From positions 27,556-49,183 of the forward strand of contig DDYM01000057.1 of NCBI GenBank assembly GCA_002347985.1: DNA of 21,628 nucleotides, read 5' to 3'. Below, in pieces: positions 10,970-21,052 of this stretch (positions are counted from its first letter, which is position 1; each line of letters opens with the position of its first letter). The translations under genes and the position numbers were made by a program. The notes beneath the pieces were generated by a model. That model did not search any database and was not told where the DNA came from. It saw only the letters and a program-made list of their open reading frames with translations. This stretch comes from Bacteroidetes bacterium UBA2234. GTDB taxonomy: Bacteria > Bacteroidota > Bacteroidia > NS11-12g > UBA955.

Positions 10970-11013
10970 GTAGCGAAGGGGGGAATTGAACCCCCGACCT
11001 CAGGGTTATGAAT
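10970..11013. repeat. Left attachment site: 44-bp copy of the tRNA-Met 3' half
   Basis: Identical to 20978-21021. It covers the tRNA from the anticodon loop (TTCAT) through variable loop, T arm and acceptor strand to the first C of the terminus. The tRNA sequence stops at 11013; what follows (ATTGCGG...) is unrelated apart from a few bases. The identity ends at the anticodon loop, so crossover there is likely. This is the classic choice of tRNA-targeting tyrosine integrases. Confidence 0.92.
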
Positions 11014-11118: not shown

Positions 11119-11238
11119 GATTGAAACACCAAGCTTCAGATTTGAACGGTTAAACGAAATTACTGTGTGTTTTTTACAATTGGTATTACGCAATCTGCAA
11201 TTTCCGTCAATGCGAGAAAATCAGGACTCTAAAATTAT

Positions 11239-11270
11239 TTTGCAATTCCTGTGTGATTGTGATAGTTTCG
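11239..11270 (+). promoter_or_regulatory. Candidate cassette promoter (Pc-like)
   Basis: TTTG (11239-11242), exactly 20 nt, then TAGTTTCG (11263-11270), against the Bacteroidota consensus TTTG-N~20-TAnnTTTG (one mismatch in the -7 box). Predicted transcription would start near 11277, five bases before the first cassette core site and about 44 nt ahead of the DinB start codon. This is the position of Pc in an integron platform. Confidence 0.5.
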
Positions 11271-11281
11271 TATATAATCAA

Positions 11282-11290
11282 GTTAGTGGC
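11282..11290 (+). other. First cassette core site (attI-side junction)
   Basis: GTTAGTGGC, exact reverse complement of GCCACTAAC at 11865-11873, the left border of the first attC-like site. By integron logic the crossover lies between the G at 11282 and TT, making cassette 1 run 11283-11992. Confidence 0.7.
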
Positions 11291-11320
11291 AAGTGTATTA
11301 AAAAACAGAAATGAAATAAA

Positions 11321-11872
11321 ATGAAAAATTGGACATCGACATTAAACGACATTTCAAAACAATCATTATCTGAATTCGGGTCATTGACTAGTGAACAGTT
11401 GAATTGGAAACCGGCATCAAACACATGGAGTATTGCTCAAAATTTAGACCATTTGATTGTAGTCAACGAAACTTACTATCCTGTTTTAGCATCATTAAAA
11501 TCAGGGACACATAGAACACCTTTCATTGCGAAAATTGGTTTTATGGTTTCATTTTTAGGTAAGACAGTATTAAATGCAGTGCAGCCAGACAGAAAGAAAA
11601 AAATGAAGACGTTTCCAATATGGGAGCCAACTACAAGCAATGTAATTGGTGACATTCTGAACAGGTTTCAAAATCACCAAAATGAACTTATACAAAAAAT
11701 AGAAGGTTCACAAGGACTTGTTGAGAAAGGAGTTGTTATTTCTTCACCTGCAAACAAGAATATTGTTTACAAATTAGAGACAGCATTTGACATTATTGTT
11801 TCACACGAACAAAGACATTTAGAACAAGCGAAAGAAGTATTGCAATTGATGAAAAATAACACCAGCCACTAA
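11321..11872 (+). CDS. DinB-family protein
   Basis: 183 aa, four-helix-bundle DinB/YfiT-type fold by pattern: WTSTLNDISKQSLSEFGSL, then EQLNWKPASNTWSIAQNLDHL with the first metal His (~44), and C-terminal IIVSHEQRHLEQAKEVLQLM with two further His (~162, ~166). These three His form the usual divalent-metal site. Members include damage-inducible proteins and metal-dependent thiol transferases (bacillithiol/mycothiol class). The exact reaction here is unknown. It is the sole gene of cassette 1. Its stop codon TAA (11870-11872) is embedded in the attC left border, leaving no spare sequence, as is typical of compact cassettes. The ATG lies in an A-rich leader with no strong Shine-Dalgarno. Confidence 0.8.
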   Translation: MKNWTSTLNDISKQSLSEFGSLTSEQLNWKPASNTWSIAQNLDHLIVVNETYYPVLASLKSGTHRTPFIAKIGFMVSFLGKTVLNAVQPDRKKKMKTFPIWEPTTSNVIGDILNRFQNHQNELIQKIEGSQGLVEKGVVISSPANKNIVYKLETAFDIIVSHEQRHLEQAKEVLQLMKNNTSH

Positions 11873-12000
11873 CAGCACCTACCCAAAAGGCGGGGTTTCG
11901 TGCTCTAAAGACAGTTTGGTGGTAGCTCGAACTTTAGTACTTTTAATCAACATTTGTGGTGAATCGCCCGCCCTTCGGGTAGCTGCAAAACGTTATATGC
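11865..12000 (+). repeat. attC-like site 1 (end of DinB cassette)
   Basis: 136 bp from GCCACTAAC (left border) to GTTATATGC (right border, 11992-12000). Inner arms pair: AGCACCTACCC...GGCGGG at the left with CCCGCCC..GGGTAGCTGC at the right. An unpaired AGC follows the left AAC, so the arms are asymmetric as in attC. The right end (CCCGCCCTTCGGGTAGCTGC then AAACGTTA) is nearly identical to that of site 3, and GGCGGGGTTTCGTGCT is shared with site 3. Confidence 0.7.
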
Positions 12001-12028
12001 AACCCTAAAAGACACGATACTCAAAGAA

Positions 12029-12403
12029 ATGAAACTTGATAAATTGACACCAATGCTTTACACAACTGACCTGAAAGAGACAGTTGATTTTTACGTTCAA
12101 ACACTTGGTTTCAAGTGCAAATCGTTTGAAATTGAATGGGGTTGGGCTTCTGTGTTCATTGACAACATAGAAATTATGTTTTCATTACCTAACGACCATA
12201 TTCCATTTGACAAGCCAACTTTTACAGGCTCTTTTTATTTCAAGACTGAGCAAGTTGATGAACTTTGGAACAACATAAAAGATAAGTCAAACGTTGCTTA
12301 CCCAGTTGAAAATTTTGACTATGGAATGAGAGAGTTTGCCATTCACGACAACAACGGATATTTACTTCAATTTGGACAAGAAATAAATGAAACTAAAAAG
12401 TAA
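12029..12403 (+). CDS. VOC-superfamily (glyoxalase/bleomycin-resistance-like) protein
   Basis: 124 aa, one full VOC unit of paired beta-alpha-beta-beta-beta modules: LTPMLYTTDLKETVDFYVQTLGFKCKSFE at the front and GREFAIHDNNGYLLQFGQE-type ending (MREFAIHDNNGYLLQFGQ) at the back. The glutamate/histidine metal positions cannot be assigned with certainty. Relatives include fosfomycin- and bleomycin-resistance proteins and lyases; the substrate is not readable. It is the first gene of cassette 2. Its last 17 bp overlap the start of the MerC-type gene in another frame, so the two are translationally linked. Confidence 0.8.
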   Translation: MKLDKLTPMLYTTDLKETVDFYVQTLGFKCKSFEIEWGWASVFIDNIEIMFSLPNDHIPFDKPTFTGSFYFKTEQVDELWNNIKDKSNVAYPVENFDYGMREFAIHDNNGYLLQFGQEINETKK

Positions 12404-12995
12404 CATCGACAAAATTGGAACGGCTGGACTTTTCTTGACCGCAATATTTTCACCTTGCTGTTTTCCTCTTTTTGCATTTGCAGCATCAGCACTTGGACTT
12501 GGGAGCTTTGAACTTTTCGGTGGGTGGACAATGTGGATTTTCCAAGCAATGGTTTTAATATCGGTTGGTGGACTTTACATTTCGTATCGCAGACACCGTT
12601 GTTTGTTTCCTTTATTGACAGCTATTCCAAGTGGACTTTTAATTTTTTATGCCTATCACTTTAACGACAGCAATTACTGGACATATTTTCTTTACACAGG
12701 AATGTTCGGACTTCTCATTGCGACAATATGGAACTATAAACGAAACAAAATGCACGGAACTTGCGACACTTGCACAACTTACAACGGCAAGACAGTTGAA
12801 ACACAATCAACATTGACTTGCCCAAACTGTGGACACAAGAAAACTGAAATTATGCCGACAGACGCTTGTGTATATTTTTACGAATGCGAACAATGTAAGA
12901 CACGACTGAAACCATTGCAAGGAGACTGTTGTGTATATTGCAGTTACGGGACAGTTAAATGTCCACCAATTCAAGCAGGAGAAAATTGTTGCTAA
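12387..12995 (+). CDS. MerC-like membrane protein fused to a GDCCVxC domain
   Basis: 202 aa. The N-terminal part (about 1-115) has four hydrophobic helices. Helix 1 carries the Cys pair of FSPCCFPLFAFAASALGLG, the MerC-type mercury-binding position (MerC moves Hg(II) across the inner membrane). The C-terminal part (about 120-202) is a Cys-rich cytosolic domain: CDTC, CPNCGHKK, MPTDACVYFYECEQC, then GDCCVYCSYGTVKCPPIQ, which is the GDCCVxC family motif. Members of that family are sometimes selenoproteins; this copy uses Cys throughout. The fusion suggests metal or metalloid uptake coupled to a thiol-rich handling domain. Mercury is inferred from family only. It overlaps the VOC gene by 17 bp, and the stop lies 23 bp before the attC-like site. 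Confidence 0.85.
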   Translation: MKLKSNIDKIGTAGLFLTAIFSPCCFPLFAFAASALGLGSFELFGGWTMWIFQAMVLISVGGLYISYRRHRCLFPLLTAIPSGLLIFYAYHFNDSNYWTYFLYTGMFGLLIATIWNYKRNKMHGTCDTCTTYNGKTVETQSTLTCPNCGHKKTEIMPTDACVYFYECEQCKTRLKPLQGDCCVYCSYGTVKCPPIQAGENCC

Positions 12996-13017
12996 TGGAC
13001 ACGACAGAAAAAGGGCA

Positions 13018-13151
13018 GCATATAACAGCGGTTTGGCAATATGGCGGCTGAAGTGCTAATATGAAACATTTGTGCAAGGTTCAAGTGCAGTAATCCTATT
13101 GAACTTTTCTGCTAAAAATACGCCACATCGCCAAGCCGCAAACCGTTAGCA
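13018..13151 (+). repeat. attC-like site 2 (end of VOC-MerC cassette)
   Basis: About 134 bp from GCATATAAC (13018-13026) to GTTAGCA (13145-13151). The left arm TAACAGCGGTTTGGCAA is the same as in site 3. The right arm (reverse complement TAACGGTTTGCGGCTTGGCG) pairs with it after an unpaired AGC on the left and a 7-base bulge on the right, then continues ATATGGCG/GTGGCG. The middle has a second inner hairpin (GGTTCAA near 13079 with TTGAAC near 13100). Confidence 0.7.
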
Positions 13152-13187
13152 GTAATGGTAGGACGCACCAGCCGACAACAATAGACA

Positions 13188-13985
13188 ATGAGGAAAACGA
13201 CATTTAAAATATCAAAAATGGACTGCCCATCCGAAGAACAAATGATACGGATGAAACTTGCCGACTTGACAAACATCAACTCGTTAGAATTTGACATTGC
13301 AAACAGACAACTGACCGTTTTTCACACAGACAATCACGACCAAATTTTTCAGCGACTTGATAACTTAAAATTTGACACTTCACTTATTGACAGCGTTTCG
13401 GCAGACAATTACACAGCAACGACAGACAACACTAACCGAGAAAGAAAATTGCTTTGGCAAGTTTTAGCTATCAACTTTTTCTTTTTTGCTCTTGAAGTGA
13501 CAACAGGTTTTATTTCAAACTCAATGGGACTTGTGGCGGACAGCTTGGATATGCTTGCCGACAGCATTGTTTACGGACTTGCACTTTTTGCAATTGGTGG
13601 GACAATGACACGAAAAAAGAACATCGCAAAATCAGCAGGTTATTTTCAGTTGACACTTGCCGTTTTCGGTTTCATTGAAGTAATCAGACGATTTGTAGGT
13701 AGTGAAACAATTCCTGCATTTCAGACAATGATAATTATTTCAATTCTTGCACTTATCGGCAACGGACTTTGTTTGTATTTACTGCAAAAAAGTAAAAGCA
13801 AAGACGCACATATGCAAGCAAGTATGATTTTTACATCCAATGACGTAATTGTAAATCTTGGAGTAATTATAGCAGGCGGACTTGTTTACTTGACAAACTC
13901 AAAATATCCTGACCTTATCGTTGGGACAATTGTATTTTTCATTGTTGGACAAGGAGCATTTAAAATTTTAAAACTATCAAAATGA
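13188..13985 (+). CDS. Cation diffusion facilitator with N-terminal HMA-like domain
   Basis: 265 aa. The N-terminal ~75 residues form a heavy-metal-associated-like domain with the motif KMDCPSEEQ (~10-18), a single Cys plus acidic residues in place of the usual CxxC. The rest is a CDF-type transporter with about five to six membrane helices. The metal-site pattern VADSLDMLADS (D-x-x-x-D, ~116-125) and the second half HMQASMIFTSNDVIVN (~208-223) are both visible. No large C-terminal cytosolic domain is present, so the HMA module at the front may replace it. Likely exports a divalent metal; which one is not readable. Only gene of cassette 3. Its ATG is 42 bp after the core site that ends attC-like site 2. 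Confidence 0.8.
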   Translation: MRKTTFKISKMDCPSEEQMIRMKLADLTNINSLEFDIANRQLTVFHTDNHDQIFQRLDNLKFDTSLIDSVSADNYTATTDNTNRERKLLWQVLAINFFFFALEVTTGFISNSMGLVADSLDMLADSIVYGLALFAIGGTMTRKKNIAKSAGYFQLTLAVFGFIEVIRRFVGSETIPAFQTMIIISILALIGNGLCLYLLQKSKSKDAHMQASMIFTSNDVIVNLGVIIAGGLVYLTNSKYPDLIVGTIVFFIVGQGAFKILKLSK

Positions 13986-14000
13986 CGGACGAACAAAGAA

Positions 14001-14101
14001 CCACTAATGCTAACAGCGGTTTGGCAAAAGGCGGGGTTTCGTGCTTCGAATGAACATTTGTGCTAAAAATCCCGCCCTTCGGGTAGCTGCCAAACGTTAG
14101 C
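14001..14101 (+). repeat. attC-like site 3 (end of HMA-CDF cassette)
   Basis: Shortest and cleanest of the three. GCTAAC (14009-14014), AGCG unpaired, GTTTGGCA pairs with TGCCAAAC then GTTAGC (14096-14101). An inner stem AAAGGCGGG pairs with CCCGCCCTT. The extended left border 14001-14014 matches the start of cassette 3 (13145-13158) as reverse complement at 12 of 14 bases. After the right border comes TTTTGCTAA, so GTTAGC-TTTT-GCTAA forms a further small inverted repeat running into the stop codon of the next gene. Confidence 0.72.
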
Positions 14102-14106
14102 TTTTG

Positions 14107-14679
14107 CTAATACGCAAACAAATCCTGTATTGCATACATATCCCCAACCTCTTCTTTGGTTATATCAAGGTATATGCGGGTAATAGCAGTTGAGGAATGG
14201 TTGAACAGGAAGGAAAGTTTAATAAGCGAAGCCTCGGAATAGTTGTTTCGTTTCCAAACTTCTCGTCCAAAGGTTTTACGCCAGGTATGAGTTGAAATTC
14301 GTTTGCCACGAATACCGGCTCTGTAAGCCAGTATTTTAATCTGCTTGTTGATAGCCCTGATGGTAATGGGAACTACAGATTCTGATGATGGGGGCTGACC
14401 AAGCTTCTTGTATAAGAATAAGAGGTTCTCGGAAAGTTCCTTGCCAATTGGAATTTCTCGTCGCTTGCCTGTTTTCTTTTCAATGATGATGAGAGCATCT
14501 TTATGAAGAATGTCAGACCAACGAATTTGCGAAAGGTCTGAAAAACGAAGTGCGGTTGAAACACCAAGGCGAACGATGGTGTAATATATCCAATCTTCAT
14601 TCTTGGAAAGATACTTAAGGAGTTTGTTCAGTTCGTTTTCTTCAAGATGTTCGGCAGATTTAATTTTTGTTGTGTGCAT
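14107..14679 (-). CDS. Tyrosine recombinase consisting of the catalytic domain only
   Basis: 190 aa, against 290-430 for ordinary integrases. All catalytic positions of a tyrosine recombinase are present: Arg45 (STALRFSDL), Lys69 in EKKTGKRREIPIG, His131 and Arg134 (HTWRKTFG), His161 (FNHSSTAITRIY) and nucleophile Tyr170. Missing are the N-terminal SAM-like core-binding domain and any arm-binding domain, and the ~20-residue extra helix that marks integron IntI is not seen, so it is not IntI by sequence. FimB/FimE inversion enzymes are of similar small size. The gene reads toward the cassette array; its stop codon is 5 bp from the last attC-like border. A 9-bp inverted repeat abuts its start codon. 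It may be a full small recombinase, or a remnant that kept the catalytic half. An intact reading frame argues for the former. Confidence 0.8.
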   Translation of the reverse strand: MHTTKIKSAEHLEENELNKLLKYLSKNEDWIYYTIVRLGVSTALRFSDLSQIRWSDILHKDALIIIEKKTGKRREIPIGKELSENLLFLYKKLGQPPSSESVVPITIRAINKQIKILAYRAGIRGKRISTHTWRKTFGREVWKRNNYSEASLIKLSFLFNHSSTAITRIYLDITKEEVGDMYAIQDLFAY

Positions 14680-14680
14680 G

Positions 14681-14716
14681 GTTCCTTTTTTGGTGCTATG
14701 CTACGGCAAAAGGAAC
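14681..14716. repeat. Inverted repeat at the start of the solo recombinase
   Basis: GTTCCTTTT (14681-14689) and AAAAGGAAC (14708-14716), perfect 9-bp arms, 18 bp apart, beginning one base upstream of the recombinase ATG (14677-14679). Either an autoregulatory operator or a recombination site of this enzyme. The 18-bp gap is longer than the 6-8 bp crossover regions typical of tyrosine recombinases. Confidence 0.6.
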
Positions 14717-14999
14717 AAAATGCAATGCTAAATTTTTGTTTTAGTTGATTTTCAATACTTTAAGGGTGCCATTTAGTACAAAAATGGAACTAAGAGTGTC
14801 GCCAATCAATATACCCCCGTCCTGCTCCCCACTGTCTCCCCGGCCGGACTGGTTACCTGCCTCATATAATGGTGTTAGTCCTTTTTGGTAGGGGGTACGG
14901 TGCCGTGATGGAAATGGCTTTTATTTTTTGAGTTATTGATGTAATACGTTTTGGGGTCAAAAGTTGAAGTACCCCCTCATTTCTTAAAAAGGCTAAAAA
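14717..14999. other. Noncoding region with a GC-rich block and inverted repeats
   Basis: About 280 bp without a gene. From roughly 14811 to 14863 the sequence becomes strikingly C-rich (ATACCCCCGTCCTGCTCCCC, then CTCCCCGGCCGG), in strong contrast to the A/T-rich island. AGGGGGTAC (14889-14897 area) and GTACCCCCT (14969-14977) form a 9-bp inverted repeat, and a third ACCCCC copy lies at 14812. It sits beside an RHH-protein gene. Candidate roles are oriT, replication origin or an operator array; none is proven. Confidence 0.5.
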
Positions 15000-19217: not shown

Positions 19218-19615
19218 ATGTAAAGACTAGTGTAATAAAAGAATTAGTGCCGTCTAAAAATCTATATACTTTATTAACGCTTTCCGAAGTTGGTAAGAAA
19301 ATTAAATTATCTGACCCCAAATCAATTAAGAATTGGTTGCGGCAAAATGGAGTAACTATCCATAAATTAGCTTCGAGAACATTTGTGTATGATTTGGAAT
19401 TGAAGGTTTGTTTATTGAAGCCTATGGTTTTGGATTTGATTAAAAAACACCCTAATCAATGGAGAGAGATTTGCCGAAATATTATTGATAACGATGTGGT
19501 TTTTGAGTTGCTTTTAGTTGGATTAGAAGACGGACGACCGATGATTTTACCGAGGTACAAAATGCAATTCAACTCAATTGACGAAGAAAAACTCTACAAT
19601 GACCTAGTGGCATGA
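19214..19615 (+). CDS. Excisionase-like helix-turn-helix protein
   Basis: 133 aa from ATG 19214. ATG 19202 would add four residues, but 19214 overlaps the leader-ORF stop as ATGA. Residues about 20-65 (LYTLLTLSEVGKKIKL then SIKNWLRQNGVTIHKLASRT) look like the MerR/excisionase-type DNA-binding fold that reads a short helix-turn-helix plus a wing. The second half (~70-133) is helical, with no recognised motif. The TGA overlaps the integrase ATG (ATGA at 19612-19615), so both are made together. By position and fold it is a recombination directionality factor candidate controlling excision of the island. Confidence 0.6.
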   Translation: MNVKTSVIKELVPSKNLYTLLTLSEVGKKIKLSDPKSIKNWLRQNGVTIHKLASRTFVYDLELKVCLLKPMVLDLIKKHPNQWREICRNIIDNDVVFELLLVGLEDGRPMILPRYKMQFNSIDEEKLYNDLVA

Positions 19616-20907
19616 GGAACATAAAGTTACCAACTAATCCTTTTAAAGGATTAAGATTATACTGTAGGATATGCAGAGGAAAAGTAAACGGGTGTAATCA
19701 TACCTCAGAAAACCTGTGTTATAGGTTGATTGTTACAGTTCCAAATTCGGGTGGCAAACAGGTCACTAAACTCTTGAATGCCGAAAATTATGAAGATGCC
19801 GTCATTGAATCTATTGATATTAAAAGGCAGTTGGAAAGGTTGAATTATCAAATAGTTACCGAAAAAGTTGAAACCAGAAATATTCCAAATGCTTTAAACT
19901 TGGCAGCTGCGATTGTTGAGTATAAGAGATATTTGAATGGTGAAAGTGGTTATTCACACTTGAAGAAAAATCTGAGTGCAGCCTATATTAAAGAAGTACT
20001 AAGATATTGTAAGTTGTTTGTATTTGTTCTAAAGAAAAATAATAACATTAAAACTCTCCTTGTAAAGGATATTTCAAAGCAAGATGTATCCGATTTTTAT
20101 CAATACCTGAATACAGAGTATAGTCCAAAGACCTTTAATAAGTGTTTCAACACACTAAAAGGTTTCTTTGATTTCTTGATAAATATTGAAGATGTGGATA
20201 TGAAGAACCCATTTGCTAATTTTACTCCTAAAGTCATCCCTAAGTCCAATATAGAAATTTTAACACGGGGTGAGTTTGAGGCAATTTTGGTATCGGTTGA
20301 TAGATTTGATTCAAAAATCAAACTGGGAGGTCGTGGAGAGGTTAAATACATGTATTACTGCTGGTTGAAGAATGCATTTAAATTGTTTCTTTTAACAGGG
20401 GCAAGAAGAGAAGAGGTAGTTGAGTTAAAATGGAAAGATATTTTCGTATCAGAAAATGGGGTTAAATTCTTGATGTTTGGGAATTTGAAAGTTGAGAGAA
20501 TAAAGAAGGTAAGTAATACTCCTAAAAAGTTCGTGCCAATAAATAAGGATTTAGAGGACCTGTTAGTTGATATGGGTATGAATAACATTGAAAACCCGAA
20601 CGATTTTATTCTATGTCCTGATAGAAAATGTAGTTCAAAGACGTTGATGGATGTTATCAGCAAATCATTTACGCATTACAAAAATGGTGCAGGTATTGAC
20701 AAAGATGTCAGTTTGAAAAATCTTAGAAAAACATATATCACTTGGGTTAATCAAGTTATGGGGAACGAGACAGGGTTGATTACATCCCATTCCACTCAAG
20801 AGGTATTAGAAAGACATTACATAGACCCTAAAGTGTTATCTGCTATTGAACGTGGGGCACTTGAAATCAAGGTTTTTGGGGACAACAATCATCAAGAGTT
20901 GGACTGA
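19612..20907 (+). CDS. int: Tyrosine integrase of the island
   Basis: 431 aa, three-part phage/ICE-type integrase. The N-terminus has a Cys-rich segment (CRICRGKVNGCNH...C, ~20-42) that may bind zinc, followed by a SAM-like core-binding domain (~100-200, KDISKQDVSDFYQYLNTEY...FNTLKGFFDFL). The catalytic domain (~215-431) shows Arg in LLTGARREEVVELKW (~265), the beta-strand Lys (LKVERIKK or KKFVPI region), box II LKNLRKTY with Lys in place of the first His and the required Arg (~373), His in SHSTQEVLERHY (~393) and nucleophile Tyr (~402). Lys at the first box II position is tolerated in the family. The gene ends 69 bp from the tRNA and lies next to the att copy, so it is the enzyme that integrates the element into tRNA-Met. 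Confidence 0.92.
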   Translation: MRNIKLPTNPFKGLRLYCRICRGKVNGCNHTSENLCYRLIVTVPNSGGKQVTKLLNAENYEDAVIESIDIKRQLERLNYQIVTEKVETRNIPNALNLAAAIVEYKRYLNGESGYSHLKKNLSAAYIKEVLRYCKLFVFVLKKNNNIKTLLVKDISKQDVSDFYQYLNTEYSPKTFNKCFNTLKGFFDFLINIEDVDMKNPFANFTPKVIPKSNIEILTRGEFEAILVSVDRFDSKIKLGGRGEVKYMYYCWLKNAFKLFLLTGARREEVVELKWKDIFVSENGVKFLMFGNLKVERIKKVSNTPKKFVPINKDLEDLLVDMGMNNIENPNDFILCPDRKCSSKTLMDVISKSFTHYKNGAGIDKDVSLKNLRKTYITWVNQVMGNETGLITSHSTQEVLERHYIDPKVLSAIERGALEIKVFGDNNHQELD

Positions 20908-20975: not shown

Positions 20976-21052
20976 TGGTAGCGAAGGGGGGAATTGAACC
21001 CCCGACCTCAGGGTTATGAATCCTGCGCTCTAACCACCTGAGCTACCTCGCC
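20976..21052 (-). tRNA. tRNA-Met(CAT), elongator type, CCA encoded
   Basis: 77 nt including CCA. Acceptor GGCGAGG pairs with CTTCGCT (two G-U pairs), discriminator A. D arm GCTC/GAGC, anticodon arm CAGGA-TTCATAA-CCCTG with anticodon CAT (the closing position reads A-C), T arm GGGGG-TTCAATT-CCCCC. G1-U72 rather than the C1 mismatch of initiator tRNA argues for elongator Met; a CAT-bearing tRNA-Ile2 cannot be fully excluded. The 3' end from the anticodon loop on is supplied by the island. Confidence 0.93.
20978..21021. repeat. Right attachment site: 44-bp repeat within the intact tRNA-Met
   Basis: Identical base for base to 10970-11013. Lies inside the intact tRNA from the anticodon loop to the first C of CCA. 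Beyond it the chromosome continues with the tRNA 5' half. Confidence 0.92.

Follow-up and report, generated by a model that had tools for sequence, protein, structure and literature searches.

How three unrelated gene units, each followed by a long palindrome, came to stand in a row without an integron integrase is the question raised by a stretch of DNA from Bacteroidetes bacterium UBA2234 (contig DDYM01000057.1), whose whole length of 21,628 nucleotides is called the window in the following. An earlier note, made from the letters of this stretch only, had suggested an integron-type cassette array without IntI inside a tRNA island. After computational follow-up, the segment 11282-14095 is interpreted, with a probability of about 0.9, as an integrase-less array of a Bacteroidota integron class located in a tRNA-Met island; it is thus a CALIN (in the IntegronFinder papers, a cluster of attC sites lacking an integron integrase) that has kept its attI. 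Integrons are a main route of bacterial gene collection, and few have been reported in Bacteroidota.

The segment consists of three units on the forward strand. Cassette 1 (11282-11991) carries a DinB_2-family gene (11321-11872; Pfam DinB_2, 1.5e-12), cassette 2 (11992-13144) a glyoxalase-family gene (12029-12403) and a MerC + GDCCVxC gene (12387-12995), and cassette 3 (13145-14095) an HMA + cation-efflux gene (13188-13985; Pfam Cation_efflux, 1.1e-18). The respective attC-type sites, at 11862-12003, 13015-13156 and 14003-14107 on the same strand, fold as palindromes and matched the covariance model R1, which was built from an alignment of 44 sites including these three, with 122.7, 130.3 and 83.5 bits. 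The last 12 bases of site 1 are the start of cassette 2. As stated in the earlier note, each cassette starts with bases identical or nearly identical to the reverse-complemented left border of its own site: GTTAGTGGC and GTTAGTGGC in cassette 1 (9/9), GTTATATGC and GTTATATGC in cassette 2 (9/9), and GTTAGCAGT and GTTAGCATT in cassette 3 (8/9), with 12/14 in all three when the comparison is extended. These pairs also appear as inverted repeats I4 and I6. Inner sequence common to the sites, likewise proposed before, was recovered as the repeat families D1, D2 and D4, all of which occur in site 3. That neighbouring borders differ was true for the right border of site 2 (2/6), and did not hold for that of site 3 (5/6). 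Site 3 has a left arm of the GCGGTTTGGC type and a right arm of the GGGTAGCTGC type. It looks chimeric, with a left arm like site 2 and a right arm like site 1, so that its outer L-arms do not form the pairing found in other sites. No Rfam family lay above threshold at the window sites. The genome of UBA2234 contains four R1 sites, three of them in the window, and near matches to a 15-mer were as common as those to its reversed control; on these counts, chance in an AT-rich genome was rejected.

The border relation extends far beyond the window. Positions 4-9 of the cassette start (six bases) were compared with the left border of the cassette's own site, which gave agreements of 6/6 and 5/6 for cassettes 2 and 3. 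From 150 consecutive same-strand pairs, ten were dropped since their border did not begin with GTT, and the 140 that were kept (two of them from the window) agreed in 5.49/6 positions on average, 109 of them perfectly. The same site's right border, with which the next cassette starts, agreed in 2.90/6 positions, and shuffled pairs in 2.65 +/- 0.09, with none of 1000 shuffles above 2.94; chance does not account for the relation. Viral contigs, which lie outside the training set of R1 yet were retrieved with the same 17-base site piece, gave 4.95/6 for 99 of 103 pairs, versus 3.02 for the right border and 3.04 +/- 0.11 for shuffled pairs. On the chromosome of the metagenome-assembled genome (MAG) 'Bacteroidota bacterium isolate SSA2' (CP058707.1, G396), the respective values for 237 of 240 pairs were 5.71, 2.56 and 2.60 +/- 0.08. 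Position 11 is a conserved mismatch, with A at the cassette start and usually G in the reverse complement of the border, and agrees in 2% of the main set, 4% of the viral pairs and 19% of the G396 pairs. A cassette copy in locus L149 begins with ATTAGTGG, in which A replaces G before TT; it matches only from base 2 on, in line with cutting between G and TT.

Palindromic, intergenic sites with conserved sequence could also form a plain repeat family, REP-like or terminator-like, that has spread beside genes without any cassette recombination. However, the left border agrees much more closely with the beginning of the unit before it than does the same site's right border, all 242 sites in G396 are co-oriented, and the homology of a recurrent 1435-bp cassette (see below) starts and stops at the cassette borders. 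This explanation was rejected on the border rule and is regarded as extremely improbable.

The content of the cassettes and their distribution also point to an integron. The genes found at this one site family are mostly unrelated, as 116 cassette proteins fell into 105 clusters, and they share one orientation: among 125 cassettes of up to 2 kb, the longest open reading frame runs towards the site in 110 and in the opposite direction in 6, while 9 have no frame of 60 amino acids. Both properties are those of canonical integrons. The region of cassette 2 (window 11989-13161) recurs with 96.7% identity in one other locus, on the G396 chromosome. Cassette 3 has relatives with 90-97% identity over 881-973 bp in five loci (L175, L166, L053, L051 and L121), among them Seramator thermalis (L175) and a Flavobacterium MAG (L121); these alignments mostly end within the site or enter the neighbouring one and are thus cassette-long, not base-exact. 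Twelve more loci contain the 1435-bp cassette from Pelobium (L118, 2412-3846) over its full length, with 85-96% identity over 1433-1441 aligned bp; it is common to Pelobium, Chryseobacterium, Sphingobacterium, Flavobacterium, an Algoriphagus MAG and others. By eye, its main protein looks MerT-like, and the end of the cassette resembles window 12803-13147. The arrays hold metal-handling genes and many unnamed genes that are common to distant genera. With the border rule in three data sets, unrelated genes at one site family and cassette-long homology between distant genomes, the integron-type array proposed in the earlier note is supported, and neither of the two opposing outcomes set in advance, that is, no border rule elsewhere and constant neighbourhood to the same genes, was encountered.

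The 17-base site piece occurs in at least 117 stretches of the genome collection. Fourteen of these stretches are titled as other groups, two of them as Ignavibacteria, and the remaining 12 contain no R1 match and look like chance matches. In the 44 aligned sites, the inner stem comprises 16 consensus pairs, 12 of which show changes on both sides; the sites are therefore palindromes with a conserved stem and a variable sequence, as are those of canonical integrons. Since R1 was trained on sites near the window type, other site types are undercounted. According to predicted energies, the bottom strand folds more stably than the top strand in 29 of 43 sites when G.T pairs are allowed (p = 0.003). 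The motif TAAATTTG is present in the loop of many sites (alignment A1) and resembles the Bacteroidota promoter box TAnnTTTG; judged from this likeness, the sites may contain cassette promoters.

Eighteen array-rich genomes and 14 control genomes were searched with the integron-integrase model TIGR02249. Tyrosine recombinases matched in all 18 and all 14 genomes, respectively, and none of the recombinases from the 18 array-rich genomes exceeded the cut-off of the model. The best recombinase per array-rich genome has a frame of 285-610 residues and usually matches in two pieces around an unmatched middle; the integrase beside the arrays measures about 350 residues. Most of 16 aligned integrases have an N-terminal extension of about 70 residues (alignment A2, columns 1-120), and L182, with the frame of 610 residues, has a larger N-terminal part. 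The 20 integrase regions comprise the best gene per genome and one second copy each in G396 and in G404, where the gene is truncated at a contig end; 17 of them contained R1 sites, versus 0 of 19 Xer-type regions from the same genomes. In 16 of the 17 regions with sites, the integrase gene is co-directional with the cassettes, and in L251 it is divergent. Complete loci with R1 sites, integrase and the attI motif described below include L238, L243 and L246. Among 395 Bacteroidota genomes, 115 encode a member of the family, called at E <= 1e-66 with the integrase profile, and R1 sites are present in 94 of these 115 and in 71 of the 280 genomes without it.

The attI motif was derived from 14 loci in which the first cassette start had been found by border match, and was ranked with each locus left out in turn. 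A short AT-rich motif, for example CATATATACAA, precedes the first cassette; among the GTTR positions of its locus it ranked first in 9 of the 14 loci and within the first five in 13, and it stands beside the integrase gene as attI does in canonical integrons. The earlier note had missed that the window array also has a recognisable attI. The motif TCGTATATAATCAA stands immediately before 11282 and ranks 2nd of 379 GTTR positions. Together with the leader of a lost, divergent integrase gene it makes up 11151-11281 (forward strand), which was recognized by homology to congeners: window 11151-11297 has 75.8% identity, across 149 bp, with the interval from the integrase to the first cassette in the congener G434, when the first ATG (L414:9155) is taken as integrase start. 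The region is also similar to G438 (72.7%, 143 bp) and to G427 (72.8%, 125 bp); G427 itself lacks an integrase match at 1e-50. The integrase family is present in two of 14 congeners, G434 and G438, and the gene of G434 is divergent from the cassettes. A tblastn search did not find an integrase coding sequence in the window, and in the genome of UBA2234, which is 95.4% complete, the best match to the integrase profile (A2) reached 4.5e-38, which is Xer level, versus <= 1e-66 in the family. The absence of IntI was thus upheld, as this genome has a single Xer-type match only. Due to the homology of attI and leader and the absent coding sequence, the window array is best read as an integron that has kept attI and three cassettes and has lost the integrase gene. 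On another contig of the same genome (G000:C62:3272-3885, L417), a second attI-like motif, ATATATACAA, stands before GTTATAGCCC and one solitary cassette.

A different enzyme could be proposed from the immediate neighbourhood, as the 3' end of a gene for a short tyrosine recombinase (14107-14679, reverse strand; 190 amino acids, catalytic domain only) abuts the last site, and in L149 (2197-2800) an interrupted site is followed by a relative with 67.6% identity. The cassettes would then have been moved by this protein and not by the IntI-related integrase. However, among 393 loci (all from L033 on, minus 14 that had been retrieved with the short recombinase itself) it matches L149 only, besides two copies of the window, whereas the integrase family lies near sites in 17 of 20 regions. 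On the former ground the short recombinase was rejected as the engine, and a role of this kind is very unlikely. It has 316 relatives at E <= 0.001, and its viral relatives are distant, with at most 37% identity. A palindrome, seen by eye, lies ahead of its start codon (window 14683-14720), and a similar stretch is present in L149.

The host recombinases XerC/XerD would be a further option if they used these sites in the way they serve phages that fold an attachment site, which would make the integrase family a mere passenger. The 71 integrase-free genomes with sites and the wide presence of recombinase matches at Xer level or better (361 of 395 genomes) are in line with this. Yet no site was found in any of the 19 Xer-type regions, the attI motif adjoins the integrase (in a scan of integrase loci), and integrase-free genomes also fit integrase loss, as in the window. 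Altogether, use by XerC/XerD is considered quite unlikely.

The integrase associated with the arrays differs from IntI in one domain. The distance from the catalytic lysine region to HxLRH is 55-57 residues in the family (14 of 16 measured) and 56-61 in seven further rows, compared to 59-65 in Xer-type proteins (9 of 19 measured), whereas IntI has 97 (10 of 11 measured). The match to VchIntIA (PDB 2a3v) splits around VchIntIA residues 186-243. Five family proteins reached 178-223 bits with TIGR02249, whose cut-off is 265, and a control IntI from Pseudoalteromonas was matched in one piece with 316.8 bits. From the spacing and the break in the VchIntIA match it follows that the IntI-specific additional domain of about 41 residues, a mark of canonical integrons, is absent from the family. 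In a smaller tree that contained the long-branched, 248-residue L113, IntI was placed weakly among the Bacteroidota rows (two changes). In a larger tree, L113 was removed and eight proteins were added; it comprised 20 Xer-type proteins, eight proteins from other phyla and, as IntI rows, a Thiodictyon protein with its close relatives, nine in all, plus two Pseudoalteromonas proteins. Here, the family and IntI grouped together with support of 100/100, apart from the 20 Xer-type and seven of the eight other-phylum proteins; the Bacteroidota family formed one clade at only 89/77. A topology test rejected a single clade of Bacteroidota and IntI proteins (p 1.3e-9), probably owing to a protein from Lentisphaerota that was assigned to 'other Xer' but lies within IntI. 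Family members are also present in two MAGs titled Ignavibacteria (L179, L349).

In the mechanism proposed for these arrays, a cassette would be circular, with a single site and either one gene or a gene pair, and the site a long imperfect palindrome able to fold as single-stranded DNA. A tyrosine integrase related to IntI, devoid of the IntI-specific domain, would join the circle to the attI beside its own gene and would cut between G and TT. With a cut at this position, the first bases would accompany the cassette and remain complementary to its own site's left border. Sequence comparison shows the border rule, an attI motif adjoining integrase genes, integrase and sites that lie close together and co-occur, cassettes homologous over their length in distant genomes, and no integrase coding sequence in the window; from this we infer recombination itself, single-strand folding in vivo, the choice of strand and the function of this integrase as the enzyme, to which it is assigned because of position, co-occurrence and descent. 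The window cassettes could at present move only with an integrase supplied from elsewhere.

Several points weigh against the interpretation of the window as an array of a Bacteroidota integron class. All three window sites belonged to the training set of R1, and the right border of site 3 resembles its own left border in 5/6 positions. Without G.T pairs, the bottom strand is more stable in 23 of 43 sites, which is not significant; its folds are only slightly more stable, and the energies do not clearly name a strand. For the attI motif, 3 of 17 loci were left out (L254 and L255, with a start far from the integrase, and L251, with a divergent integrase), the better or integrase-adjacent start was chosen where two fitted, and the motif failed in L241 (rank 129 of 337). 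Three of the 20 integrase regions contain no site (L240, at a contig end, L253 and L257). The threshold of 1e-66 was drawn after the scores had been seen, and in the co-occurrence count, for which at most eight candidates per genome were scored and genome kinship was ignored, 21 of 115 integrase genomes have no detected site and 71 of 280 integrase-free genomes have sites. Two R1 matches also lie on one 4.8-kb contig of a Micrarchaeota MAG (G420:C95, L419), which is perhaps a binning error.

At the same limit of eight candidates, R1 sites were found in 165 of the 395 sampled Bacteroidota genomes, representing 90 of 171 genera. They were also found in 28 of 39 relatives of UBA2234 (itself included); of 12 control genomes from other phyla, 11 gave no R1 match, the exception being the Micrarchaeota MAG. 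In G396, 242 of 242 sites lie on one strand within 400 kb with an integrase at the head, a number exceeding that known from Vibrio superintegrons, and further sites extend to at least 3475734 (G396:C1 3475734-3986625; L420-L439, L254). Forty-nine stretches with the 17-mer were found in IMG/VR viral contigs. The arrays on these contigs (L299-L347) have short cassettes with a median gap of 324 bp, and the contig L320 also encodes a family integrase (285.7 bits). INPHARED phage records contained no match to 11862-14107, and among the best 15 of 20 matches in plasmid records, at most 41% of the query was matched. On balance, these data somewhat favour the view that Bacteroidota hold a large, overlooked integron class, present in about two fifths of the sampled genomes with up to hundreds of cassettes, whose integrase would act on folded sites without a domain held to be essential. 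As the family is a neighbour of IntI in the tree and separate from Xer, the IntI-specific domain may be younger than cassette recombination; for the choice between an ancestral and a lost domain, the tree is thin in IntI and without verified archaeal XerA.

The location of the array within a tRNA island, also part of the earlier note, is borne out by a 44-bp exact direct repeat (10970-11013 and 20978-21021) that encloses an island of 10 kb. The right copy lies inside tRNA-Met (20976-21052), and the left copy corresponds to the 3' part of this gene. The island integrase (19612-20907, forward strand; Phage_integrase, 2.2e-08) adjoins tRNA-Met and is no integron integrase.

That integrons are little described in this phylum agrees with the literature. 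Few are reported, and the passages concerned of the IntegronFinder 2.0 paper name one complete integron for Bacteroidetes proper, that of Salinibacter ruber (PMC9024848). A review counts Bacteroidota among the integron-bearing phyla (PMC8618304), and a survey from 2008 mentions intI in the Bacteroidetes/Chlorobi group (PMC2426708). IntI detection by IntegronFinder 2.0 needs the IntI-specific domain (PMC9668308); such screens are therefore expected to miss the integrase described here. In the passages concerned of PMC8352920, 11 taxon-specific attC models are given, none for Bacteroidota; PMC2727003 describes the structural features that characterise attC. Among the matches listed in the openly licensed literature, bioRxiv preprints excluded, there was no description of integron arrays across Bacteroidota or of arrays with an insertion-less integrase. 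The origin of the IntI domain has been called a chicken-egg paradox, as to how it was selected before attC sites existed (PMC4792948), and an insertion-less integrase beside cassette arrays makes this puzzle testable. Beyond the earlier note, the comparisons show a retained attI leader in the window, a system that is widespread in the phylum and a likely integrase without the IntI-specific domain.

In comparison with canonical integrons (IntI, attI and attC, as in class 1 integrons and Vibrio superintegrons), the Bacteroidota arrays have the same arrangement of one gene and one palindromic site in one orientation, the same border rule and an attI beside a tyrosine integrase that groups with IntI (100/100); most Bacteroidota integrases also end in an SP(F/L)D motif similar to the ending of IntI. 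They differ in the lack of about 41 residues in the integrase (spacing 55-57 versus 97 in IntI), in the conserved mismatch at border position 11, and in the right border, as the canonical R' consensus GTTRRRY fits only 15 of 205 right borders. Furthermore, canonical integrase genes are divergent from the cassettes, whereas those of Bacteroidota are co-directional in 16 of 17 regions, with the divergent gene of G434 being canonical-like. Archaeal XerA (NF040815) is similar in that five family proteins reached 203-228 bits with this model, one of them over the cut-off of 220, and in having similar best PDB matches. In contrast, seven of eight NF040815 matches from other phyla group with Xer and one, from Lentisphaerota, within IntI, in trees from which verified archaeal XerA is absent; archaeal XerA is not known to be linked to cassette arrays. 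The Bacteroidota integrases may belong to the 'integron-like' subgroup of tyrosine recombinases, in which, according to the passages concerned of PMC8138268, the insertion is not fully conserved, yet essential for integron function; these passages tie no cassette arrays, attI or attC to insertion-less members. With its three sites, and no integrase nearby or in the genome, the window array resembles a CALIN, which has at least two sites. It differs from a CALIN in that its sites belong to the Bacteroidota family and in that attI and the integrase leader are kept, which makes its probable origin by integrase loss visible.

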